This document shows, in pieces, positions 5,897 through 33,933 of a DNA stretch of 64,000 bases. The translations under genes and the position numbers were made by a program. This DNA is from Polynucleobacter sp. 86C-FISCH. Its GTDB lineage: Bacteria; Pseudomonadota; Gammaproteobacteria; Burkholderiales; Burkholderiaceae. The notes under the pieces are model-generated. The model saw only the letters and a list, made by a program, of their open reading frames with translations, was not told the DNA's origin and did not search any database. Location: positions 1,217,531-1,281,530 of the forward strand of contig NZ_JACVOL010000001.1 of the NCBI RefSeq assembly GCF_018882415.1, written 5' to 3'. How positions within the stretch are numbered: the first letter of the stretch is position 1; every line of letters starts with the position of its first letter.

Positions 5897-6835
5897 ATGA
5901 AAAAACTGCTTCTTCTTGTCGTATTGTTTGCTGTGGGCTGTACTACTGGCCCTAGGCGACTGGATTATCAATCCGTCATAAGCGAAGAAGTGGAATCCCC
6001 TTTTTTTAAAATCCCACCTTTGAACGAAAAGGACTATCAGAGTCGTTCATGGATTCTGTTGGCTGAGTCTAAAAATAAAAACTGGTTCTATGATCCCTAT
6101 ACATTGCGTGAGGATCAAGAAAGTGTGATCAGTTTTGATGCATTTTTTTCTCCTAGAGAGAAAAATAACTTAGCTCAATTTAATGCCACGATAGTTGGCC
6201 CTTATCGTCAAAAGATTGATTGCTTTAGTAATCACCATTGGTCTGAGACTTTATATACCCAAAACTTGGTTGCAACAGCACCCTTGGTTGGTGAAACCAA
6301 GCCAGTCAATGGATCTGGCTGGGTGAAGATTACCCCTCGTACAGCAATAGCCTATGTGCGCTCACGCCTGTGCGGTAGGAAATTTATTGATGATCAAAAT
6401 GTGAATTTCTTTTTATTCCAGGATGGTTTCTTAGATGCACCAGTGGCCAAGAAAGCGCCTGTTGAAGTATTTGATGAAAAAGCAAACAAGCAAATGCCTT
6501 TGCCTAAAGAAGAAGAGGTGAAGATTTCTGCTTCGGAGAAAACACCCGTTTTTTATGAAGTCATCAATAATGAAATCGCCATCATTGATCAGAAGAAAAA
6601 TATTCGACAGCTCAAAGTAAGCTCTTATCTCCTCGATAAGAATTTTGCCAAACAGGGCGATTACGTTCTAATGGCCGATTGTCAAAATCAACAGATCAGT
6701 TTCGGACCACAAGGCTCACCGCAGAAATGGGTTGCAGTACCCGAAGAAAAGAATTCCTTTGGTGCGGTAGGATTTAATCGAGCTTGTGGAGATCATGGCT
6801 CCTATATGAAATTGCAAACGAAGGGAGTTCAATAA
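5897..6835 (+). CDS. Lipoprotein with adhesin-E/CNP1-like region
   Basis: An ATG at 5897 gives a clean lipoprotein signal (MKKLLLLVVLFAVGC, lipobox AVGC at 12-15); a longer TTG start at 5879 would overlap folE and bury the signal, so the ATG is preferred. The mature protein is 298 residues. Residues about 45-160 carry W-x-L-L, a Tyr-Asp strand, a DC pair and a final W-x-x-I-x-P-x-T segment ending in Cys, a pattern like surface-adhesin E or CNP1-like domains of beta-proteobacteria; this match is by eye and tentative. The C-terminal half is unrecognised. It probably forms an operon with the small lipoprotein two bases downstream. Confidence 0.7.
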   Translation: MKKLLLLVVLFAVGCTTGPRRLDYQSVISEEVESPFFKIPPLNEKDYQSRSWILLAESKNKNWFYDPYTLREDQESVISFDAFFSPREKNNLAQFNATIVGPYRQKIDCFSNHHWSETLYTQNLVATAPLVGETKPVNGSGWVKITPRTAIAYVRSRLCGRKFIDDQNVNFFLFQDGFLDAPVAKKAPVEVFDEKANKQMPLPKEEEVKISASEKTPVFYEVINNEIAIIDQKKNIRQLKVSSYLLDKNFAKQGDYVLMADCQNQQISFGPQGSPQKWVAVPEEKNSFGAVGFNRACGDHGSYMKLQTKGVQ

Positions 6836-6837
6836 GC

Positions 6838-7047
6838 ATGAGCTATCGCTATTTCACGCTGCTCCCCCTCGTCCTAACTCTTATGTCTTGCGTGAGTATT
6901 CCCTCTGAAAACCCAGATCCGGCGAAAAACAATAAAGCTACTTATAACAAGGAGCTGCGAGAGTGCCAGGAGGATTACCCGGAAGCGGGTTCGGGGGTTC
7001 ATATTAGGCAATGGGCTAATTGCATGAAGCTGAAGGGTTGGCGCTAA
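6838..7047 (+). CDS. Small lipoprotein, hypothetical
   Basis: This 69-residue product starts at ATG 6838, two bases after the previous stop, with GGGAG (6822-6826) as ribosome-binding site. The signal ends in LTLMSC (lipobox), giving a mature chain of about 53 residues with a single Cys pair (LRECQEDYP and WANCMKLKGWR). No family is recognised; the C-x(n)-W-x-x-C-M-x-x-K-G-W ending occurs in several small beta-proteobacterial lipoproteins. Lipidation and co-transcription with the larger lipoprotein upstream are well supported; function is unknown. Confidence 0.7.
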   Translation: MSYRYFTLLPLVLTLMSCVSIPSENPDPAKNNKATYNKELRECQEDYPEAGSGVHIRQWANCMKLKGWR

Positions 7048-7240
7048 TAGGCCTCTAAAGCATCCAATCGTTGTCGCGGCGCAACATTAAACCCGTATAG
7101 AGCTTAATTACCCCTTAAAAATAGTACTTCTCTGCAAATTAATACCAAATTTTATATACTTCTTTCTATGCATTCTTGTGGGTTCCCAGATTTGGCGGGA
7201 AATAGCTTAAGTTTGTATCTATCAATAAAAAAGGTAAAAA

Positions 7241-7993
7241 ATGAAATCAGCAAAATTATTAGTGGCTTTGGCAGCAACTGGCTTAGTTGCAACATCAGCA
7301 TTTGCGCAAAAGAGTGCATTTGAAGGTTTCTATGGACAACTCGCAACTGGCTATGAAAATAATTCAACATCAAATGGAAACGTAGTTACTTCTGATATCG
7401 GAAGTGGCAACCCACCAGCAACATGGACCTCATCAAATCAAAGTTTTGGCGGTGCACCACTCGTAATTGGTGCGGGCTATAACTTTTCTGTAGCCCCAAA
7501 ATGGGTTGTTGGACTCGGTGCAGATTATTCATTCTTGCCGCAAACCAGCTCTACTTACAGTGCTAGCAACCCTGCTGCTGGTAGCAATAATGCAGGCGGT
7601 ACAATTGCTGGGGCAACATACAAAACTTCTAATCGCTACAACATCTTCATTACTCCTGGTTACGAGATTGACAAAGATAAGTTAGTTTATTTCAAGGCGG
7701 GTTACAGCTCTGTATCTCTAACTTCTAATAGCGCAACCAGCTATATCGATAATGGCGATGCAATGAATAACAACACTATTAGAGCTGGTAGCCAGTCCAA
7801 AACTCTCAATGGTTATGTTTTAGGTCTTGGCTATAAGCAGTTCATCACCGGTGGCATTTATGGTTTTGCTGAAGGTAACTACATGAGTTACAGCAAGGCT
7901 AACTTCGCGACTGTAGCCAATGAAACAAGTTTTTCCTCTAACCCAGGTTTATCTTCATACCAACTGTTAGTGGGTGTTGGTTACAAGTTCTAA
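7241..7993 (+). CDS. Outer-membrane beta-barrel protein
   Basis: A signal peptide (residues 1-22, MKSAKLLVALAATG...SAFA) precedes an alternating Gly/aromatic-rich sequence that ends in LLVGVGYKF, the C-terminal aromatic signature read by the Bam complex. Length (250) suits an eight-stranded OmpA-like or OmpW-like barrel. Ser/Asn/Thr-rich stretches at about 95-115 and 160-185 would be exposed loops. There is an AAAAGGT ribosome-binding site and a strong terminator follows. Ligand or role cannot be told. Confidence 0.8.
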   Translation: MKSAKLLVALAATGLVATSAFAQKSAFEGFYGQLATGYENNSTSNGNVVTSDIGSGNPPATWTSSNQSFGGAPLVIGAGYNFSVAPKWVVGLGADYSFLPQTSSTYSASNPAAGSNNAGGTIAGATYKTSNRYNIFITPGYEIDKDKLVYFKAGYSSVSLTSNSATSYIDNGDAMNNNTIRAGSQSKTLNGYVLGLGYKQFITGGIYGFAEGNYMSYSKANFATVANETSFSSNPGLSSYQLLVGVGYKF

Positions 7994-21373: not shown

Positions 21374-22144
21374 ATGGAATTTAGAGTGTTGAATATTATT
21401 GTGCCTATGGCTGGGGCTGGGAGTCGATTTTCTAAGGCTGGCTATAGAGATCCTAAGCCTCTGATTTCGATTCATGGAACCCCAATGATTCAGGTCGTTA
21501 TTCAAAATCTTATGCCTGAAATGCCTCATCGGTTTATCTTTGTTTGCCAAAAAGAACATGTTAATACATATGGGTTAAGGGAAAAGCTTGAGAAGTGGGC
21601 TCCTGGGAGTGCAATCATTGAATTAGAGGGAATTACGGAAGGGGCTGCATGTACTGTGCTTGAAGCCCAATCGCTGTTTGATAATGATGAACCTTTGATG
21701 ATTGCTAATAGCGATCAATATATTGATCTAAATATTAATCATTATTTGGACAAATTATCTATCCATGGTTTGGATGGCCTGATTATGACTATGAAGGCAA
21801 GTGATCCAAAGTGGTCTTACGCTGGGATTGATTCTGATGGCATGGTAAGTCGAGTCGTTGAAAAAGAGGTCATCTCTGATGAGGCAACAGTTGGGATTTA
21901 TAACTTCAAAAGAGGTTGTGATTTTGTTGCTGGCGCGAAAGAAATGATCGCAAATGATGAAAGGGTAAACGGTGAATTTTATGTGGCACCTGTTTATAAC
22001 AATCTAATATCGAACGGTAAAAAAATTGGGATCTTTAATGTGGGGTCGGAGGGAAAGGGTATGTATGGCCTTGGAATACCAAGTGATCTCAATTATTTCC
22101 TTCGGCAGCCTATTTCACTTCGGACTCCTTCATCATGCGGTTAA
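21374..22144 (+). CDS. Sugar/polyol nucleotidyltransferase-like protein (cassette gene 1)
   Basis: A 256-residue GT-A-type nucleotidyltransferase. The pyrophosphorylase loop is intact (PMAGAGSRFSKAG, about 11-23) followed by DPKPLISIHGTPMI, and a SDQY metal motif stands near residue 116. Its paralogue lies three genes downstream. The activated molecule is unknown; similar enzymes act in capsule decoration pathways of other Gram-negatives. It overlaps the next gene by 10 bases, first of a chain of overlaps through the cupin gene. Confidence 0.72.
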   Translation: MEFRVLNIIVPMAGAGSRFSKAGYRDPKPLISIHGTPMIQVVIQNLMPEMPHRFIFVCQKEHVNTYGLREKLEKWAPGSAIIELEGITEGAACTVLEAQSLFDNDEPLMIANSDQYIDLNINHYLDKLSIHGLDGLIMTMKASDPKWSYAGIDSDGMVSRVVEKEVISDEATVGIYNFKRGCDFVAGAKEMIANDERVNGEFYVAPVYNNLISNGKKIGIFNVGSEGKGMYGLGIPSDLNYFLRQPISLRTPSSCG

Positions 22145-22764
22145 TAGCCCATAGAGGATTTTGGTTGAATCCTTCTGAAAAAAATACTTCAATTGCCTTT
22201 GCTCGCGCTTTTGAATGTGGTTTTGGTATTGAAACTGATTTTCGCGACTTGAATGGTAGGCTGGTTGTTTCTCATGACGTGCCCGGAAGTGATGCATTAT
22301 CTATTGAAGATTTTATAACTCTATACAAGGCTACCACTAACCCTGGACTAATGGCGCTTAACATAAAAGCAGATGGCCTACAGTGGCTGGTTAAGGAAAT
22401 GGTTAAAGCATCTGGAATGAAGGATTATTTTGTATTCGATATGTCCGTTCCTGATATGAGGGAGTATTTCTCGAATGGAATTCCTGTTTTTACCCGCCTA
22501 AGTGAATATGAAACCCCGCCTGCATTTCTTAATGCTAGCGCTGGAGTATGGTTGGATGCTTTTGAAAATGAATGGTATGACATTCAGGTGCTAAATGACT
22601 TGCTAAAGAAAAAAAAGTTAGTTGCAATTGTTTCGCCTGAATTACATGGACGTGACCATAACTATCTTTGGGAATTTTTGAAGAGTAACCAGCTCTTCAA
22701 AAACCCACTAATTTCACTTTGCACAGATTTTCCTATGGAAGCCAAGGAGTATTTTCATGTCTAA
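22135..22764 (+). CDS. Glycerophosphodiester phosphodiesterase-like protein (cassette gene 2)
   Basis: A short (209-residue) TIM-barrel phosphodiesterase. The metal/catalytic residues of GDPD enzymes are present: His6-Arg7 in AHRGFW, EKNT in place of PENT (15-18), Glu33 and Asp35 in GIETDFRD, and His47-Asp48 in VVSHDVP. It has no signal peptide, so it should act in the cytosol, unlike scavenging GlpQ. Overlap with both neighbours (10 and 8 bases) ties it to nucleotide-sugar-like metabolism rather than lipid turnover. Substrate unknown. Confidence 0.72.
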   Translation: MRLIAHRGFWLNPSEKNTSIAFARAFECGFGIETDFRDLNGRLVVSHDVPGSDALSIEDFITLYKATTNPGLMALNIKADGLQWLVKEMVKASGMKDYFVFDMSVPDMREYFSNGIPVFTRLSEYETPPAFLNASAGVWLDAFENEWYDIQVLNDLLKKKKLVAIVSPELHGRDHNYLWEFLKSNQLFKNPLISLCTDFPMEAKEYFHV

Positions 22765-23389
22765 AATCAAGGCCGTATTATTCGACATGGATGGTGTGTT
22801 AATAGATGCAAAAGACTGGCATTATGAGGCCCTAAATCAAGCCCTTTCCTTGTTTGGCATGGCAATTAGCCGCTATGATCATTTGGTTACATACGACGGT
22901 TTGCCAACTAAAAAAAAATTAGAAATGCTTACATTGGAGCGCGGCTTGCCGAGAGCTTTGCATCAGTTTATTAATGACATTAAGCAGGAGTTCACCTTTC
23001 AGTTGGGGTATGCAAAATGTAAGCCAACATTCAACCATCAATACGCACTTTCAAATTTAAAGGCTCGCGGCTATAGGCTAGCCGCTTGTTCGAATTCGAT
23101 TCGAAAGACTATGGATGTTTTGTTTGAGCGAGCTGCCATTACCCAATATTTTGACTTTTATATCTCCAATGAAGATGTGAGAGATTCAAAACCACATCCT
23201 GAAATGTATCTAACTGCTATAAAAAGACTTGGTTTAAAACCATCCGAGTGCTTGATTCTTGAGGACAATGACAATGGAATTAGGGCTGCGAAAGCTTCGG
23301 GGGCTCATTTATTGGTAATCAATGATGTTGATGATGTTAATTTAGAGTGCATCACTAACCGCATTAAAGAAATTGAGGTCAATCAATGA
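22757..23389 (+). CDS. HAD-IA phosphatase (cassette gene 3)
   Basis: A 210-residue haloacid dehalogenase-type hydrolase: motif I FDMDGVLIDA (9-18), motif II CSNS near residue 112, the Lys of motif III (DSKPHPEMY) and motif IV LILEDNDNGIRAAKAS. The cap is the alpha-helical C1 type. It resembles beta-phosphoglucomutase/GPP-like enzymes and should remove (or move) a phosphate from a small sugar or polyol phosphate made or used by the neighbouring nucleotidyltransferases. Confidence 0.8.
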   Translation: MSKIKAVLFDMDGVLIDAKDWHYEALNQALSLFGMAISRYDHLVTYDGLPTKKKLEMLTLERGLPRALHQFINDIKQEFTFQLGYAKCKPTFNHQYALSNLKARGYRLAACSNSIRKTMDVLFERAAITQYFDFYISNEDVRDSKPHPEMYLTAIKRLGLKPSECLILEDNDNGIRAAKASGAHLLVINDVDDVNLECITNRIKEIEVNQ

Positions 23390-24123
23390 ATCTTGTTATC
23401 CCTATTGCCTCGAATTCTAAATTTTTTAGTATTGAAGAGTATGGGTATCCAAAGCCTCTTGTTGAGATTTCCGGTAAGCCTATGATTGAGCATGTTATTA
23501 ATAACTTGACTCAAGGTATAAATTTTAAAAAAATAATCTTTATTGTTAGGCAAGATGAGTGTGATAAATTTCACCTTGATAAGACTTTAAATTTAGTGAG
23601 CCCTATAAGGCCTGAAATTATTAAACTGAGAACTGACACGCTTGGGGCGGTATGCAGTGTTTTGCTGGCTGTAGAGCACATCGACCAACATGAGCCATTA
23701 ATTATTTCTAATGCTGACCAGTTATTTGATGATGGAATTATTAATTCATTAGAGCAATTTATGGAAAGTGATCTGGATGCCGCATGTATAACATTCAATT
23801 CGGTGCACCCTCGCTGGTCATATGTAAGGATTGATGAGAAAAATTTAGTAATTGAAACAGCAGAAAAGAGGCCTATTAGTAAGCAAGCAATTGCTGGGTT
23901 ATATATGTATAAGTCTGGATCGGACTTTATCAAATACAGCATGGATTCAATTAGGCATGGCGCCAGTAACGAGGGAAAATATTACATAGCACCTGTCTTT
24001 AATGAGTATGTTCTGGCAAATAGAAAAGTGGGGGCTTTCCCGATCTTAAACAATAGTTACCATACCTTTTATAGTCCTCAGAAGATTAAAGAGTATGAAT
24101 TAATGATTACTCAAGGCGATTAA
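23386..24123 (+). CDS. Second nucleotidyltransferase-like protein with altered nucleotide loop (cassette gene 4)
   Basis: A 245-residue paralogue of cassette gene 1: both have PKPL-[VI]-x-I-x-G-x-PMI after the loop, a [SN]-[AS]-DQ metal motif, and the W-S-Y-[AV] and EGKYYIAPV / GEFYVAPV strands. Yet where gene 1 reads AGAGSRFSKAG, this one reads ASNSKFFSIEE, so the loop glycines and the catalytic Arg are gone. It may be a non-catalytic subunit or use a different donor. It begins with an ATGA overlap on the HAD gene. Confidence 0.65.
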   Translation: MNLVIPIASNSKFFSIEEYGYPKPLVEISGKPMIEHVINNLTQGINFKKIIFIVRQDECDKFHLDKTLNLVSPIRPEIIKLRTDTLGAVCSVLLAVEHIDQHEPLIISNADQLFDDGIINSLEQFMESDLDAACITFNSVHPRWSYVRIDEKNLVIETAEKRPISKQAIAGLYMYKSGSDFIKYSMDSIRHGASNEGKYYIAPVFNEYVLANRKVGAFPILNNSYHTFYSPQKIKEYELMITQGD

Positions 24124-24443
24124 TGAAGGTGTTTAAATTACGAGATATGGTTAAAGGGTGGTTTGTGGGAGACTTTTCGCCATCTGTATTAAGTACAAAA
24201 GAGGTTGAGGTGGCGGTTAAATTTTATAAAGCAGGTGATTACGAGCCGTCACATTATCACAAGATCTCTAAGGAGATTACGGTCATTAATTCTGGACAAG
24301 TTAGAATGAACGGTAAGGAATATCATGCGGGTGATATTGTAGTTATAGAGCCAAACGAAGTTACTGACTTCCTAGCCTTGTTGGATACCAGCACTACCGT
24401 TGTTAAATTACCAAGTGTAAATGGCGATAAATACTTGGATTAA
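24123..24443 (+). CDS. Single-domain cupin protein (cassette gene 5)
   Basis: A 106-residue beta-barrel protein with cupin motif 1 (SHYHKISKEITVINSG, about 40-55) and motif 2 (AGDIVVIEPNEVTDF). His, His and Glu metal ligands are present in motif 1; the motif 2 His is replaced by the EPNE stretch. Small cupins in polysaccharide loci are often isomerases, epimerases or amine-sugar modifiers, but nothing fixes its reaction. It begins with a TAATG overlap on gene 4, closing the coupled cassette. Confidence 0.72.
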   Translation: MKVFKLRDMVKGWFVGDFSPSVLSTKEVEVAVKFYKAGDYEPSHYHKISKEITVINSGQVRMNGKEYHAGDIVVIEPNEVTDFLALLDTSTTVVKLPSVNGDKYLD

Positions 24444-24612
24444 ATGGCTATATTAAATCTCAGCTATTTTATTAGTCGAATAAGCATGGGCCTGAATGAT
24501 AATCAGTTATATATAGCAAAATTATTCCACATCTAATCATTTTCTATCTTTGCTCTGCATTTATGAAAATGTATTAATTAACATTTTCAAGGAAGTGGGA
24601 TCCCTAAATATC

Positions 24613-25437
24613 ATGAAAAGAAATCTAAGTAAAGTTGTGTCAGTTGCCTCGCTGGGGGATATTGATGTTTGGTCATATGGCGCTTCTTATGTTAAGAGAT
24701 TTATAAGTGCTGATGAGTATAGGATAATTGTCCCGGGAAAATATAAAGAAGATTTCGAGAGAAAAAATTTTGCAAACTATAGCGTAATTTCGGAAGAGGA
24801 AATCATAGATGTTGAAATAATTGATAGACTAAAGGATCAGTTTTCCAATCTAGAGCATACAAACACATTTGGGTGGTACTTGCAGCAATTTATTAAGATA
24901 GAAGAGCTTAGAAAAAACAAAAAAGAGTATGGATTAATCTGGGATGCCGATACTATTCCTCTAAAAAAAATTCCATTCTTGTTAAAAAATGGTAGTTGTA
25001 GAGCATATATGGCAACTGAAAATCATGGGCCATATTTTCAAACTTTAGAAAAGCTTTTGGGAATACAAAAGCAACTAGACTATTCTTTTGTATCCCAATG
25101 TTTGTGTGCAAAGATGTCAGATGTTTATAGAATGTGTTCTGAAATAGAAGGGAGACATGGAAAAAACTGGATAAGTGCCATATTAGATTTGATTGAAGCG
25201 AGACATGGAGAGTTTTCCGAATACGAAACTATCGGCAATTTTTGTTTAAACAGTACAAAAAATTACTATTCTTTTAAGTCACCTAAAAAATGGAATAGGC
25301 ACGGATATAGACTGATGGGATCATTTAAATGGTTAAAGTTAACTAGGATATTTCTTGCGCTCAAGTGGGACTACGTTTCATTTGAGAAGTGGGATAAAAA
25401 TTGGGGTTTAAAGAAGTATATTTTTGGGAAAAAATAA
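24613..25437 (+). CDS. DUF6492-type glycosyltransferase-like protein
   Basis: The 274-residue product has the DUF6492 layout: an SVASLGDIDVW-like start, the acceptor-side FGWYLQQFIKIEEL block (about 80-93) and a D-x-D in LIWDADTIPLKK (about 104-115). The family is thought to be GT-A glycosyltransferases of surface glycans. An upstream TTG at 24550 was rejected because the added residues are hydrophobic and unlike the family. This gene opens the very AT-rich part of the locus. Confidence 0.65.
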   Translation: MKRNLSKVVSVASLGDIDVWSYGASYVKRFISADEYRIIVPGKYKEDFERKNFANYSVISEEEIIDVEIIDRLKDQFSNLEHTNTFGWYLQQFIKIEELRKNKKEYGLIWDADTIPLKKIPFLLKNGSCRAYMATENHGPYFQTLEKLLGIQKQLDYSFVSQCLCAKMSDVYRMCSEIEGRHGKNWISAILDLIEARHGEFSEYETIGNFCLNSTKNYYSFKSPKKWNRHGYRLMGSFKWLKLTRIFLALKWDYVSFEKWDKNWGLKKYIFGKK

Positions 25438-25440
25438 TTC

Positions 25441-26334
25441 ATGAATTTATTCTCCATATTTGAAAAATTAATTCATAAAGTCAATAAATATTCAGCAGAA
25501 AAAATACTTCTAGATTGCGTGGATTTCAAAATCTTAGCAATGCCATTGGATAAAAACTTTACAATATTAGTTCAAGGGCCTATTTTTAGAAATAATTTCA
25601 AATTTTTTAGTGGGATAATTTGCGAATACCTAAAAGTTGTAGGCGAAAAAAGAATTATTGTCTCAGCTACTTCAATGACACCCCAGTGCATTGATTTTCT
25701 TAAGGAAAAAAATATAAGATTTGTCGTAAAAAAACCTAAATCATCGGGTCCACACAATATTTTCTATCAAGCAAGTAGTGTGCTAAGTGGATTGAATTTC
25801 TGTACGGATGAAGAATGCATTGTGAAGGTTAGAAATGATCAATTCATTCAGAGATGGGATTTTATTGATGCCTATAAAGCGCAAGTTGAAGACGGTAAGG
25901 TATTTGCTGTTGGGTTTAGTTTTATAGACCCTGCATATCATATTGGAGATATGGTGCATTGGTGCAAAAAAGAGCTAATGGAAAAAATATGGAATAACGT
26001 AGCAGATCGCAAAAATATTGAACATATGCACTCCATTTACCAGGGCGCTTTTCCAGCAACCTGTAATACTTGGGCTAAAAATGATTTGCCACCCGAGATT
26101 TATATAGGGATATCATTATCAGAAACTTTCATGAGTTTGGATTTAAGTCTGGATAATTACTATCGGCTTATTAGAGAAAAATTAATATTGTGTAGCAATT
26201 ATGACGTGGGATTGCAGTGGGCAAAACATAATGCAGTTTTAGATTTTCACAGGGTCTGGACGAGTGGGTATAGACCAACAATTAATCATATAAAGTGGTT
26301 GCAGATTAGTAGATCCAATAAATATGAAAAATAG
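25441..26334 (+). CDS. WavE-like lipopolysaccharide glycosyltransferase
   Basis: A 297-residue protein with the WavE features: the FTILVQGPI start (about 41-49), an ATS[MW] strand, then VRNDQF in place of KxRxD (about 140-145), FIDPAYHIGDMVHW and a closing W-x-x-[GS]-Y-R-P stretch. WavE proteins are found in Vibrio core-oligosaccharide and many O-antigen loci and are viewed as glycosyltransferases; the sugar is unknown. It starts 3 bases after the DUF6492 gene and overlaps the flippase by 11 bases. AT-rich. Confidence 0.68.
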   Translation: MNLFSIFEKLIHKVNKYSAEKILLDCVDFKILAMPLDKNFTILVQGPIFRNNFKFFSGIICEYLKVVGEKRIIVSATSMTPQCIDFLKEKNIRFVVKKPKSSGPHNIFYQASSVLSGLNFCTDEECIVKVRNDQFIQRWDFIDAYKAQVEDGKVFAVGFSFIDPAYHIGDMVHWCKKELMEKIWNNVADRKNIEHMHSIYQGAFPATCNTWAKNDLPPEIYIGISLSETFMSLDLSLDNYYRLIREKLILCSNYDVGLQWAKHNAVLDFHRVWTSGYRPTINHIKWLQISRSNKYEK

Positions 26335-29481: not shown

Positions 29482-30447
29482 ATGAGTGTTTTAATAACTG
29501 GTGTGGCTGGCTTTGTTGGCTCAAACCTGGCTAAGAAATTTATTGCGGATGGAATTAAAGTCGTCGGTCTAGATAATTTATGCAGGGGGGATAAAAAAAA
29601 TATCTCCGAATTAATTGGTCATCCATTATTTTCATTTCATATTACCAATCTATGTGATTTAGATACGTATGCTGAAATTATTGAACAGTCGCATGTTGAC
29701 GAGGTAATAAAAGAAGTTTGGCATATGGCCGCTAACTCAGATATACCCGCCGGTATAACTGATGCAAATATCGACCTTTGCGATACGTTTATGACTACCT
29801 TTAATACTCTCGAATTGATGAGGCGATTCGGTATTAAAATCATTTCTTTTGCATCTAGTTCTGCTGTTTATGGCGACCTAGGGGATCTAAATATAGATGA
29901 AACAACAGGGCCCCTGTTTCCCATCTCAAATTATGGTGCAATGAAGTTAGCATCTGAAGCTATTATAAGTGCCGCGGTCGAAAGTTTTTTAGATGGCGCT
30001 TTTATATTTCGTTTTCCAAATGTAATAGGGTTACCTGCAACACATGGGGTAATTCTTGATTTTATTAGAAGACTTAATTCATCCAAAAAGTTGCTTGAAG
30101 TTTTGGGTGATGGTAACCAGCAAAAAAGTTATCTCCATGTGGAAGAGCTTGTGGATGCAATGTTTTTTATACGCAAGAATTCTAGCAAAAAGTGCAATTA
30201 CTTTAATATTGGGCCTGGCGATGATGGGGTCACTGTTAGATTCATAGCAGAAAAAGTACGAGATGTTGTGGCGCCCAATGCTTTAATTGTTTACGGTAAA
30301 ACCAATAAGGGCTGGGTGGGAGATGTGCCAAAATTTTATTACTCAATTGAAAAACTGAGAAATCTTGGCTGGAGCCCTACTTTAAGTTCAGAGCAGGCTA
30401 TTTTGAGGGCCGTGCAAGAAATTTATGAGCAAGAGACAGGGTTTTGA
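29482..30447 (+). CDS. NAD-dependent nucleotide-sugar epimerase/dehydratase
   Basis: A 321-residue extended SDR: GVAGFVGSNLAKKF (7-20), a D-N-L-C-R-G loop, HMAANSD, SFASSSAVYG and catalytic Tyr-x3-Lys in SNYGAMKLASE, then FRFPNVIG and the C-terminal LGWSPT. It overlaps the heptose fusion gene by 4 bases, so it likely acts on the GDP-heptose made there, as DmhA-type enzymes do, or supplies a UDP-hexose. The sequence alone does not decide between epimerase and dehydratase. Confidence 0.78.
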   Translation: MSVLITGVAGFVGSNLAKKFIADGIKVVGLDNLCRGDKKNISELIGHPLFSFHITNLCDLDTYAEIIEQSHVDEVIKEVWHMAANSDIPAGITDANIDLCDTFMTTFNTLELMRRFGIKIISFASSSAVYGDLGDLNIDETTGPLFPISNYGAMKLASEAIISAAVESFLDGAFIFRFPNVIGLPATHGVILDFIRRLNSSKKLLEVLGDGNQQKSYLHVEELVDAMFFIRKNSSKKCNYFNIGPGDDGVTVRFIAEKVRDVVAPNALIVYGKTNKGWVGDVPKFYYSIEKLRNLGWSPTLSSEQAILRAVQEIYEQETGF

Positions 30448-32363
30448 AGAAGCAAGCGATCATTTTAGCCGGTGGTAAAGGCACTAGACTGAGCGAGAGA
30501 CTTGGGGGTTTGCCTAAACCTTTGATTGATATTTGTGGAAAGCCACTGCTAGAGAGGCAGATTGAGCTTTTATTGCATCACCACTTTACAGATATATTGA
30601 TATTGGTTAATCATCGTGCTCAAGACATTATAGATTTTTGTAATAGTCGAAATAATTGGGGGATTTCTCTTAAGTGCGTTAATGATGGAGAGCCGCTTGG
30701 GACTGCGGGAGCTGTTCTAGCAATACAGAATTTGCTAGAGGATGATTTTCTCGTAATGTATGGTGATACTATGCTTGATGTTGATCTGACGCGCTTTGGA
30801 AATTTTCATAGGGCGAACAACCATACTTCAGGCACATTATTTTTGCATCCCAATGATCATCCGCATGACTCGGATTTGGTTGAAATAGATGGTAATGGAT
30901 TCATTACAGATTTCCACCCCTATCCTCATGATCAAAGTGTTTATTATCAAAATTTAGTAAACGCCGCCCTTTATTATTTAAGACGCGAAGCGCTCAGTAG
31001 CTTTTCAAGCTCTGTGATAAAAGCAGATTTTGGCAGGGATTTTTTCCCTTATATGCTTGATAATGGGCATACTTTTTTAGGGTATAACAGTTTCGAATAT
31101 ATTAAAGATGCCGGAACTCCTAAAAGGCTGGATAAGGTTTGCCAAGATTTTCTCAGTGGGCGTGTAAAGCGAGCACGATTAGATGAAGGTCAGGCCGCAG
31201 TCTTTTTGGATAGAGACGGAACAATAAATCGAGAAGTTAATCATCTGTCAACTAGTGAGCAATTTGAGTTATTGCCTGGTGTAGGTCAGGCAATAAATGC
31301 CCTTAATAACGCTGACTATAGAGCGGTAGTTATTACAAATCAGCCCGTATTGGCTCGTGGTGATTGTAGCTATGATGAGCTAAAGGTCATCCATAATAAA
31401 ATGGAGACCTTGCTTGGAAAAGAAGGTGCTTTTCTAGATCGCATTTATTATTGCCCTCATCATCCCGAATGTGGTTTTGAAGGAGAAGTTAAGGAATTAA
31501 AAATTAAATGCGTTTGCAGAAAGCCAGGGCGGGGTATGGTAGATCAGGCGGTAATTGATTTAAATATAGATATAAAAAAATCATGGCTTGTAGGCGATAC
31601 CACGGGTGATATTTTGTTGGCGAATAATTGTGGATTACGTTCTGTGTTGGTGGAGACTGGTTATGCTGGTTTGGATGAACGATACATGGCAATTCCCAGT
31701 TATACGGTGCCAGATTTATCTGCGGCAGCGGATCTCATTTTAAAGATCCATCCTTACTATTTAGATATATGCACAAAATTCGGATCCGAAATAAAGTCTG
31801 GCGATTTTGTATTTATTGGAGGTTTATCGCGATCCGGAAAGACTAATTTCTCGAGCACCTTAAAAGACTATCTCTGGTCCAATGGAATAAATGCTGTGGT
31901 AATTTCTGTAGACCGATGGTTGCGTAATCACGAAGAGCGAGAGCTAGGTGTACTTGGAAGATATGAATTAGAAGAATTAAAATTATTCATCAATGAGTTA
32001 TCGGGTCAAAATAAGCGTGCTGAAGTCACACTCTCTTCTTATCAAAAACTAACGCGCAAGAGGATTCAAAATTCAAATTCGATGGTTATTGATCCATCGG
32101 ATGTAGTGATAATTGAAGGCACCATTGCCTTAAATTTCGTGAGCGATATTTCTCTGCGTCGCACCCATGGATTCTTTCTCGAAATTGATGAGGTTGAGCG
32201 CAGGGATCGGGTAATAAATGAGTATCGCTTGCGGGGGTTGGATAATAACGAAGCAGAGGCTCTTTATCTGCTTAGAGAAGTTGATGAGGCGCCCATTATT
32301 AGAATGACATCAAAAAATGCTACGAATGTGATTCATATCAATACATTGGGGAATATAAATTGA
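30444..32363 (+). CDS. Three-domain fusion: nucleotidyltransferase, GmhB-like HAD phosphatase, P-loop kinase
   Basis: A 639-residue fusion. Residues 1-240 are an HddC/RmlA-like nucleotidyltransferase (LAGGKGTRLSERLGGLPKPL, GDT metal motif). Residues about 250-425 are a HAD-IIIA domain like D-glycero-D-manno-heptose-1,7-bisphosphate phosphatase (FLDRDGTIN, the zinc loop CPHHPEC...KCVCRKP, VGDTTGDI). Residues about 455-639 are a uridine-kinase-like P-loop domain (IGGLSRSGKTNFS, SVDRWLR, IIEGTIAL). With the GHMP kinase and SIS isomerase that follow, the first two activities complete an NDP-heptose route. What the third phosphorylates is unclear. Confidence 0.85.
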   Translation: MKKQAIILAGGKGTRLSERLGGLPKPLIDICGKPLLERQIELLLHHHFTDILILVNHRAQDIIDFCNSRNNWGISLKCVNDGEPLGTAGAVLAIQNLLEDDFLVMYGDTMLDVDLTRFGNFHRANNHTSGTLFLHPNDHPHDSDLVEIDGNGFITDFHPYPHDQSVYYQNLVNAALYYLRREALSSFSSSVIKADFGRDFFPYMLDNGHTFLGYNSFEYIKDAGTPKRLDKVCQDFLSGRVKRARLDEGQAAVFLDRDGTINREVNHLSTSEQFELLPGVGQAINALNNADYRAVVITNQPVLARGDCSYDELKVIHNKMETLLGKEGAFLDRIYYCPHHPECGFEGEVKELKIKCVCRKPGRGMVDQAVIDLNIDIKKSWLVGDTTGDILLANNCGLRSVLVETGYAGLDERYMAIPSYTVPDLSAAADLILKIHPYYLDICTKFGSEIKSGDFVFIGGLSRSGKTNFSSTLKDYLWSNGINAVVISVDRWLRNHEERELGVLGRYELEELKLFINELSGQNKRAEVTLSSYQKLTRKRIQNSNSMVIDPSDVVIIEGTIALNFVSDISLRRTHGFFLEIDEVERRDRVINEYRLRGLDNNEAEALYLLREVDEAPIIRMTSKNATNVIHINTLGNIN

Positions 32364-33343
32364 TAATAAGTAGAACCCCATTGCGAATGAGTTTTGCTGG
32401 TGGTGGCAGCGATATAGCTTCCTACTTTCATAATTTTGGAGGTGCCGTCATTAGCACGGCCATAAATAAGTATGTCTATGTTAATGTCAACCAAAAATTT
32501 GATAATGGAATTAGGGTGGGATACTCAATAAATGAAGAGGTATCAAATGTCGATGATATTGAGCATCATATTGTTAAGGAAGCTCTGAAGCACCTCGACA
32601 TCAAGGGCGGTATTGAAATAACAACAATTGCAGATATCCCATCAAAGGGAACGGGCCTGGGCTCTTCAAGCACATTTACTGTTGGGCTGCTGAATGCATT
32701 AAATGCGTTTAAGAGTAAACATATCTCCTGCGATAAGTTGGCTCAGGATTCTTGTTATATTGAAATTGAAAAATGCGGTGCACCTATTGGAAAGCAGGAT
32801 CAATATGCAGCAGCATATGGAGGGTTTAACTTAATTGAATTTAACCCAGATAACTCTGTAGTGGTGAACCCAATTATTTGCGATAAAAAGACCATCCAAA
32901 CTTTGGAGTCCAGCATATTGGTTTTTTATACCGGGATAACAAGAAGCGCATCCAACCTACTTTTAGCGCAGTCAGAAATTATATCCTCCAGCAAAGACAA
33001 GCAAGATGTCATGCACAAAATGGTATCACTTGCTCGAACACTTGCGAAGGAAGTTCAAAATAATAACCCCGACGTTTTTGGTGAAGTGCTCCACGAGGGG
33101 TGGTTATTAAAAAAAAGCATCTCAGATGAAATTAGTAATGCTGAAATTGATGAATGGTATCAGATAGCTAGAAAAGCGGGAGCAAGGGGAGGGCGCATAC
33201 TTGGTGCTGGTGCCGGCGGATTTCTAATGTTATCGGCCCCTCTCGAGTTGCATGAGCATATTAAATCCAAGCTTCATATGTTGAGGTATACACCCATTCA
33301 GTTTGAGCGACTGGGAAGTCGAATTTTATTCTACGAAGATTGA
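32360..33343 (+). CDS. hddA: GHMP kinase, HddA-like (heptose-7-phosphate kinase)
   Basis: A 327-residue GHMP kinase: N-terminal RTPLRMSFAGGGSDI (5-19), the ATP motif SKGTGLGSSSTFTVGLLNA (about 93-111) and the C-terminal KAGARGGRILGAGAGGFLM. HddA puts the phosphate on C1 of D-glycero-D-manno-heptose 7-phosphate. The ISRTPLRMSFAGGGSDI opening is the usual signature of HddA and its L-fucose/heptose kinase relatives. It overlaps the fusion gene by 4 bases. Confidence 0.88.
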   Translation: MIISRTPLRMSFAGGGSDIASYFHNFGGAVISTAINKYVYVNVNQKFDNGIRVGYSINEEVSNVDDIEHHIVKEALKHLDIKGGIEITTIADIPSKGTGLGSSSTFTVGLLNALNAFKSKHISCDKLAQDSCYIEIEKCGAPIGKQDQYAAAYGGFNLIEFNPDNSVVVNPIICDKKTIQTLESSILVFYTGITRSASNLLLAQSEIISSSKDKQDVMHKMVSLARTLAKEVQNNNPDVFGEVLHEGWLLKKSISDEISNAEIDEWYQIARKAGARGGRILGAGAGGFLMLSAPLELHEHIKSKLHMLRYTPIQFERLGSRILFYED

Positions 33344-33378
33344 ATATAAAATCTTAAATTTAACGTGCAGGGAAAAAC

Positions 33379-33933
33379 ATGATTTCGAACAATAGCGCAA
33401 GGTATGTTGGCAAATTAACAAAAATTTTAGGTGAGCTCAACTTTGAAGACTTAGATGCTGCTTTAAAGCTCATAGAAGAAGCATGGAGAAATGGAAGGCA
33501 GATCATAACCTTGGGTAATGGGGGAAGTTCTCTTACGGCCCTGCATTTTATAAATGATTGGAACAAAAGCATATATATGAGTACTGGCGTTTCTTTTAAA
33601 GGACGTAGTCTTGTAGATAATATTGGCTTAATAATGTCATATGGAAATGATATTTCTTTTGAGGATGTATTTCTAGAGCAGTTAAAAAATATATTGACCC
33701 CTGGGGATCTGGTGATTGCAATATCAGGAAGCGGTAATTCTGAGAATGTTATACGTGCGGTAAATTATGCCAATGAAAATGGTGCTAAGACCTTGGGGTT
33801 ATGTGGGTTTTCTGGTGGACGCTTAAAAACCATAGCTCAACAGAAGGTGTGGGTTAATGTTGACGATATGCAATTGGTAGAAGATGTGCATGCCATCTTT
33901 GGCCATATTGTCATGCAAACTTTATGTGGATAG
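33379..33933 (+). CDS. gmhA: SIS-domain phosphoheptose isomerase, GmhA-like
   Basis: A 184-residue sugar isomerase: TLGNGGSSLTALHFINDW (about 43-60), GNDISFEDVFLEQL, and ISGSGNSENVIRAVNYA (about 114-130). GmhA makes D-glycero-D-manno-heptose 7-phosphate from sedoheptulose 7-phosphate. In most GmhA the first motif is GNGGSA-x-D-A-x-H; here the Asp is a Thr, close to the GmhA2-like copies of capsule loci. Last gene of the heptose set, 35 bases after hddA. Confidence 0.82.
   Translation: MISNNSARYVGKLTKILGELNFEDLDAALKLIEEAWRNGRQIITLGNGGSSLTALHFINDWNKSIYMSTGVSFKGRSLVDNIGLIMSYGNDISFEDVFLEQLKNILTPGDLVIAISGSGNSENVIRAVNYANENGAKTLGLCGFSGGRLKTIAQQKVWVNVDDMQLVEDVHAIFGHIVMQTLCG

Follow-up and report, generated by a model that had tools for sequence, protein, structure and literature searches.

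Five overlapping genes at positions 21374 to 24443 of a 64,000-nucleotide stretch of the Polynucleobacter sp. 86C-FISCH genome (contig NZ_JACVOL010000001.1; the whole stretch is hereafter called the window) form a cassette whose recurrence across many phyla is not due to chance. As a working proposal, which we consider to fall a little short of probable, the cassette would be a dedicated pathway, spread by horizontal transfer, for making a nucleotide-activated sugar and attaching it through a phosphate bond to a surface polysaccharide. The five open reading frames (ORFs) lie on the + strand and encode a nucleotidyltransferase termed NT1 (21374..22144; Pfam NTP_transferase, 6.4e-13), a protein predicted to have the GDPD fold (22135..22764), a HAD enzyme of the beta-phosphoglucomutase-like group, i.e. 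a phosphatase or a mutase (22757..23389; Pfam HAD_2, 1.8e-33, with a further match to Hydrolase), a second protein matching NTP_transferase and termed NT2 (23386..24123), and a small cupin (24123..24443; Cupin_2, 4.6e-4, below the cut-off). Consecutive ORFs overlap by 10, 8, 4 and 1 bases, and here the ORF list agrees exactly with an earlier note on this DNA that had been made from the sequence alone. No N-terminal hydrophobic stretch was seen in any of the five proteins, which were inspected by eye and not with a signal-peptide predictor, so that the cytosolic location proposed in the same note is probable. The G+C content of the cassette is 0.386, compared with 0.417 for the whole window, and the host genome comprises 1.99 Mb in three contigs.

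Distribution of the cassette

A genome scan with the single sequence of the GDPD-like protein gave no match, and a scan with a profile built from its alignment then retrieved 377 relatives in GTDB contigs, the best 80 of which, ranked by similarity to the query, were used for the locus statistics. All five parts, with either the cupin or a third nucleotidyltransferase-like protein (NT3) as the fifth, were found together in 71 of the 80 loci, a share that may overstate that of the whole family because these loci are the most similar to the query. In agreement with the suggestion that the genes make up one coherent cassette of the nucleotide-sugar type, the HAD gene was present near the GDPD-like gene in 76, NT2 in 75, NT1 in 74, the cupin in 61 and NT3 in 11 of the 80 loci, and the HAD gene lay directly downstream of the GDPD-like gene on the same strand in 71. 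The commonest gene orders were GDPD-HAD-NT2-CUP-NT1 (n=34) and NT1-GDPD-HAD-NT2-CUP, the order of the window (n=21). The nine incomplete loci include four on shorter stretches (L057, L065, L083 and L091), one lacking only the cupin or NT3 (L077) and one that is split and in which no NT2 was found (L098).

Judged by record titles, the 80 loci belong to Proteobacteria, Bacteroidota, Actinomycetota (L037), Bacillota (L070 and L087), Cyanobacteria (L083 and L088), Planctomycetota (L066), Myxococcales (L061), Leptospiraceae (L065) and others, and those with the whole cassette include plant-associated Pseudomonas. The co-occurrence on which the earlier note had made its case depend therefore extends well beyond the window genome. 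Moreover, the pairwise-distance matrices of the GDPD-like protein, HAD, NT2 and NT1 from 86 loci correlated at 0.55-0.69, with a permutation maximum of 0.12, as is expected if the four main proteins travel together.

Closer to the host, the GDPD-like protein was matched in 6 of 101 own and related genomes, namely the window genome, four genomes with the same type of protein and one with a distant type. Matches were obtained in 8 of 369 genomes of the class and in 66 of 398 genomes of the phylum, but the close type was rare, being restricted to the own genome and G116 in the class and to the own genome and G788 in the phylum. The other matches were either of the distant type (G235, G103 and G120 in the class; G531, G513, G469, G478 and G475 in the phylum) or weak and limited to the first hundred or so positions at most, the latter probably being ordinary GDPDs. 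Six genomes besides that of the window carry the close type (G001, G023, G059, G100, G116 and G788), five of them with all five parts and G788 without NT2.

The cassette is also found on plasmids, 27 records of which match the GDPD-like protein. The HAD was matched closely, with at least 49% identity, in 24 of 26 plasmid matches, and a comparison of the tallies indicated nearly the same genera as for the GDPD-like protein. Eight plasmid regions all hold GDPD-HAD-NT2 together with NT1 and a cupin or NT3. The plasmid region L016 and the locus L108 (genome G788) represent one and the same DNA, which is counted twice in several family counts. A candidate viral copy, the IMG/VR contig L117 with the whole cassette, resembles bacterial polysaccharide DNA and was not counted as viral. 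We also looked for an Escherichia coli O antigen or capsule of known structure that carries the cassette, and none matched the Kosakonia copy, although this DNA search is a weak test, being blind to identities below about 65-70%.

Nucleotidyltransferases, HAD enzyme and cupin

Family alignments were made of 91 NT1, 89 NT2, 17 NT3, 93 HAD, 55 GDPD-like and 72 cupin sequences. The nearest solved structure to NT1 is 4evw (E 1.1e-22), and the NT1 copies conserve R18 (90/91), K28 (90/91; one gap each) and D114 (91/91), as well as a G-x-[GS]-x-R loop (90/91). Because this retains the arginine, lysine and aspartate that a report on inositol-1-phosphate cytidylyltransferase names as critical (PMC12275187), NT1 is regarded as an intact nucleotidyltransferase and is proposed as the catalytic subunit.

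The situation differs for NT2. Its structure model (predicted local distance difference test, pLDDT, 96.8) superimposes on 4evw with a Z score of 29.1 and a root-mean-square deviation (rmsd) of 2.0 A over 230 aligned residues, but the G-x-[GS]-x-R loop is present in none of the 89 copies, the arginine column holds R in only one and a gap in 23, and the lysine and the aspartate are retained in 62 and 68 and gone in 27 and 21, respectively. NT2 is therefore likely a pseudo-enzyme that keeps the nucleotidyltransferase fold without the catalytic loop, so that the term second nucleotidyltransferase of the earlier note, which had assumed two working enzymes, describes its origin and not its likely activity. 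In NT3 the loop and the arginine are absent from 17/17 sequences and the aspartate is retained in 17/17.

In a tree of 212 nucleotidyltransferase domains, with few outgroups and an assumed rooting, NT1, NT2 and NT3 each formed a single clade (support 0.986, 0.982 and 1.0), and NT1 and NT2 together formed one clade (1.0). The sister position of the two clades and the loss of the loop in NT2 suggest that the inactive twin is of early origin and that nearly all cassettes have retained it. In several alphaproteobacteria, and in five of the first eight plasmid loci, NT2 and NT1 are encoded by one ORF. An active and an inactive nucleotidyltransferase paralogue are similarly kept together in GMPPA/GMPPB, the GDP-mannose pyrophosphorylase complexes with an inactive subunit; NT1 and NT2 differ from these in belonging to another sequence group and in being bacterial and encoded in a mobile cassette, and here a complex is only surmised.

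The nearest solved chains to the HAD enzyme are beta-phosphoglucomutase-like proteins and sugar phosphatases, and its catalytic and cap residues D10, D12, H22, K76, K145, E169 and D170 are each conserved in at least 97% of the 93 copies. The cap arginine R49 of beta-phosphoglucomutase binds the second phosphate; in a register set by eye, its position may be taken by T51, a threonine in 93/93 copies, and the nearby K54 is invariant. That the cassette contains no kinase would suit a HAD of the mutase type. However, the score against TIGR02009 (beta-phosphoglucomutase) was 118 bits and did not reach the curated cut-off of 153.35, which makes a phosphatase, to judge from these comparisons, equally possible.

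In the cupin, H44, H46 and E51 are conserved in 72/72 copies. The cupin and NT3 were never found in the same locus (0/80), and the two are thus exchangeable; a naive count gives a value of 7e-9 for this mutual exclusion, which ignores kinship and may rest on few events. A small NTF2/SnoaL-like protein, so named by sequence and without a family search, is encoded in six loci (L080, 9010-9345, and L032, L033, L045, L052 and L073), in five of them between NT2 and the cupin.

Cyanophages carry relatives of several of these parts. HAD and NT1 constitute one protein in the Synechococcus phages S-CAM9, S-PRM1 and B23, and contiguous HAD and NT1 matches were present in 11 phage records, some of which are duplicates of one phage. 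The fusion partner of NT1 in phage Bellamy is an RpiB/LacAB isomerase, and the neighbouring genes encode a cupin, another HAD and a PfkB-like kinase. These HAD-NT1 and NT1-RpiB/LacAB fusion ORFs are located in glycan clusters (L118 and L122, both 5995-7380; L120, 5983-7356; L119, 4835-5992) that have short divergent GDPD-like genes nearby, and both kinds of fusion suggest that the substrate of the cassette is probably a sugar phosphate. A search of INPHARED with the window GDPD-like protein itself gave no match; the short GDPD-like phage genes were found separately, and all 16 phage records with such a gene, several of them duplicates, also match NT1, which is matched in 19 records altogether. 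Each of the five cassette proteins has a match among the PHROG families.

The GDPD-fold protein and the proposed pathway

No Pfam or NCBIfam family was found for the GDPD-like protein of the window, which PF03009 did not match even at E 10, and the Butyrivibrio homologue scored 17.7 with PF03009, below the cut-off of 23.6. The GDPD-like label of the earlier note nevertheless agrees with the predicted fold. The nearest solved folds to the model (pLDDT 96.8) in a VIA-align listing, absence from which was not read as exclusion, were almost all GDPDs with top Z scores of 18-20, among them 2o55 (Z 20.2), 3no3 (20.0) and 2pz0 (19.9), at rmsd values of 2.3-2.6 over 192-200 aligned residues.

The 55-sequence alignment, which covers both the close and the distant cassette type, showed H6 in 54 sequences (one gap) and E33, D35 and H47 in all 55, and Asn76 is likewise present in 55/55. 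The third acidic ligand of GDPDs is the glutamate of the xIExK strand, before Ile-Lys, and serves in metal binding. Asn76 aligns with this position, the register being taken from a second, weak HMMER segment against 1o1z (2.4 bits) and not from inspection of the model. The protein is accordingly described as a GDPD fold with the H/E/D/H site in which an asparagine apparently replaces the third acidic ligand of GDPDs.

A precedent for what such an enzyme may do is offered by AvrBs2, a GDPD-derived protein that is reported to form a cyclic sugar phosphodiester from UDP-galactose, UMP being the by-product, and is placed by its authors near agrocinopine synthase, in a clade with a specific Arg/Asp motif in the catalytic centre (PMC12807533). 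Since AvrBs2 makes a phosphodiester from UDP-galactose, synthesis would be at least as plausible as hydrolysis for the cassette enzyme. By its description, the clade shares the GDPD-type His/Glu/Asp/His with the cassette protein, and AvrBs2 differs from it in working in plant cells on host UDP-galactose (PMC12807533). The agrocinopine-type link serves as a precedent only.

In the pathway that we infer, the HAD enzyme would supply a sugar-1-phosphate, either as a phosphomutase or as a bisphosphate phosphatase, and NT1, in a complex with its inactive paralogue NT2, would convert it with a nucleoside triphosphate into a nucleoside diphosphate (NDP)-sugar. The cupin, or NT3 in its place, might be an accessory subunit or an isomerase. 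The GDPD-fold enzyme would then take the NDP-sugar as a phosphodiester substrate and release the nucleoside monophosphate, in one direction transferring the sugar-1-phosphate onto a hydroxyl group, either on a second sugar or on the glycan, and in the other hydrolysing the NDP-sugar. Finally, a WavE-like or other transferase would complete the glycan. Where genes are kept together this tightly, as in the gene sets for rhamnose and GDP-heptose, a cassette usually corresponds to a single defined activated sugar. The pathway is supported by the co-occurrence and the distance correlation, by the NT1 triad and by the NT2-NT1 and HAD-NT1 fusions, and the GDPD-fold step is supported by the AvrBs2 precedent, in which a GDPD-derived enzyme uses an NDP-sugar and releases UMP (PMC12807533).

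Further support comes from the renewed association of GDPD-like and nucleotidyltransferase genes, both in the phages (16/16) and in the distant type, whose GDPD-like protein was found in ten loci (L021, L106 and L109-L116), nine of them with NT-like genes. When five of these loci were read closely, with genes of L021 and L106 assigned from Pfam, NCBIfam or annotation and those of L109, L112 and L116 by eye, they showed a tandem nucleotidyltransferase along with a class II aldolase, a membrane protein bearing a phosphoribulokinase-like domain, and a HAD similar to ribulose-1,5-bisphosphate 5-phosphatase. GtrA and GT2 genes were often present as well. By analogy, the aldolase, HAD and phosphoribulokinase-like set recalls the haloarchaeal pentose-bisphosphate route. 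One such cassette, with the aldolase, the ribulose-1,5-bisphosphate-5-phosphatase-like HAD and the phosphoribulokinase-like domain, lies at 3397-10809 of L106 (genome G058), in the same genus as the host.

Several observations weigh against the proposed pathway. The possible overstatement in the 71/80 share has been mentioned, as has the missed TIGR02009 cut-off of the HAD. In L070, L072 and L099, the other three of the nine incomplete loci, the GDPD-like gene stands without any cassette partner nearby; two further plasmid regions are imperfect, L016 being without NT2 and L017 having a very weak NT2 match and no cupin that could be found; the distant-type locus L113 has no NT match; and some phages carry NT1 with a kinase and an isomerase and no cassette-type HAD. 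In addition, a free phosphodiester, if this is what the GDPD-like enzyme makes, would need further activation to enter a glycan.

The same proteins could also serve a classical NDP-polyol or NDP-sugar pathway with clean-up, which is the proofreading form of the idea in the earlier note and in which NT1 makes the activated compound, the GDPD-like enzyme hydrolyses wrong or excess NDP compounds or a phosphodiester intermediate and the HAD dephosphorylates the waste. The GDPD fold with its H/E/D/H site is typical of hydrolases, and the HAD group includes phosphatases. However, the HAD-NT1 fusion of the phages fits a productive step better than waste disposal, the third metal-ligand position is altered in all 55 sequences, and house-cleaning enzymes are rarely kept so strictly beside one pathway, for which reasons we regard this explanation as unlikely. 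A different possibility is that NT1 and the HAD alone constitute the pathway, the GDPD-like protein, NT2 and the cupin being non-catalytic structural or regulatory members of a large complex. This would accommodate the lack of the catalytic loop in NT2 and NT3, the interchange of cupin and NT3 and the altered ligand position, but the GDPD-like proteins of the close and the distant cassette type alike show little or no variation at H6, E33, D35 and H47, as would be expected of an enzyme, and we consider it very improbable.

A more specific version of the proposed pathway, which we advance as doubtful, would see in these proteins a widespread class of soluble GDPD-fold phosphoglycosyl transferases of hydrolase ancestry. 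They would transfer sugar-1-phosphate from the NDP-sugar of the cassette to a glycan or a second sugar, would be fed by a nucleotidyltransferase with an inactive twin, and would have been partly borrowed by cyanophages. If such a class exists, many phyla would bear in their surface polysaccharides a phosphodiester decoration that has yet to be assigned. Solving the cassette would allow a building block of surface glycans to be assigned in many phyla, would test whether GDPD-fold enzymes act more generally in bacteria as phosphosugar transferases, and would account for the preservation of an inactive nucleotidyltransferase. No description or product of the cassette was found in the literature searched, in which subscription journals are poorly covered, and this is weak evidence that none has been published.

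Surface-glycan surroundings and neighbouring genes

The gene content around the cassette in the window indicates one large surface-polysaccharide locus. We take the genes before the cassette to be ManC-type and GDP-sugar genes, and those after it to be transferases, a flippase, a GDP-heptose-type set and UDP-sugar genes, the names going beyond the Pfam matches being putative. Adjoining the cassette on the + strand are a DUF6492 protein, a probable glycosyltransferase with an uncertain start codon (24550..25437; Pfam DUF6492, 4.4e-13), and a WavE-like protein, a probable transferase without a Pfam match (25441..26334; iterated WavE-like profile, E 3.5e-51).

WavE-like genes were present within the fetched stretch in 48 of the 80 cassette loci and absent from 32, and a 12-row WavE-like profile found a match in only one of 171 class genomes, that of the window. 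Our own profile replaced Pfam WavE, which missed even its controls; it was built mostly from cassette loci, and the genomes searched are all of one class, so that the contrast is indicative only. Of 97 loci, with one record counted twice, 18 have ABC-2 permease-like genes and 28 have sugar-SDR-like genes, the gene names being putative. A wider cluster of ATPases from 25 loci also takes in unrelated transporters and was not used. These associations agree with the link to a surface glycan drawn in the earlier note, and a surface glycan is the likely destination of the product.

LicD-like genes lie beside the cassette in only one of 110 stretches (the window segment and L008-L116), that of Butyrivibrio hungatei (L087, 10038-13473), where two of them directly follow the cassette and the first matches Pfam LicD at 1e-30. 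This count rests on a phmmer search over ORFs with the two Butyrivibrio LicD-like proteins as queries, which very distant LicD genes could escape. The two genes would suit a scheme in which the GDPD-like enzyme acts as a feeder, releasing glycerol phosphate (or another phosphorylated compound) from a glycerophosphodiester for NT1 to convert into CDP-glycerol-like donors with no kinase required. The cassette does lack a kinase, and NT1 has the R/K/D triad of a group whose members use CTP with phosphocholine, phosphoglutamine and phosphoglycerate (PMC12275187). On the other hand, LicD was found in a single locus only, a phage NT1 is fused to a sugar-phosphate isomerase, and the altered ligand position and the lack of a canonical GDPD score speak against an ordinary GDPD, which leaves the feeder scheme quite unlikely.

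When compared with known systems, the cassette is classed here as a variant of the nucleotide-activated sugar cassettes and is not assigned to the GDPD, beta-phosphoglucomutase or Lic families. The pathways of inositol-1-phosphate cytidylyltransferase, CpgD and LicC are not known to include a GDPD-like protein, a paralogous pseudo-enzyme or a cupin. Their enzymes, the COG1213 group as named in PMC12275187, have in common with NT1 the critical Arg, Lys and Asp. The logic of the group and of the cassette would also be similar, a small phosphate being activated for the formation of a phosphodiester. In the GDP-heptose pathway, as proposed for the cassette, a HAD enzyme feeds a nucleotidyltransferase in a surface-glycan locus, but neither a kinase nor an SIS isomerase is part of the cassette, which encodes the GDPD-like protein, NT2 and the cupin instead.

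The window itself presumably carries a separate GDP-heptose set of the hddA-gmhA-gmhB-hddC kind at 30444-33933. A single ORF of 639 amino acids at 30444-32363 combines a nucleotidyltransferase, a HAD domain and a C-terminal P-loop-like kinase motif, the motif being recognized by eye, and is followed by GHMP-kinase-like and SIS-isomerase-like genes, also assigned by eye, the whole resembling a fused GDP-heptose-type set. Among the other cassette neighbours, a protein of about 590 amino acids is encoded in 15 of 97 loci (L101, 9309-11084, and 14 others, with L016/L108 as one record); its L101 copy matched no Pfam family at E 0.01 and its L010 copy gave a sub-threshold GT2-like match only. Ten of the 15 loci belong to Pseudomonas. 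Beside the cassette of Rhizobium K1/93 lie ery-like genes, which we take to be an unrelated neighbour.

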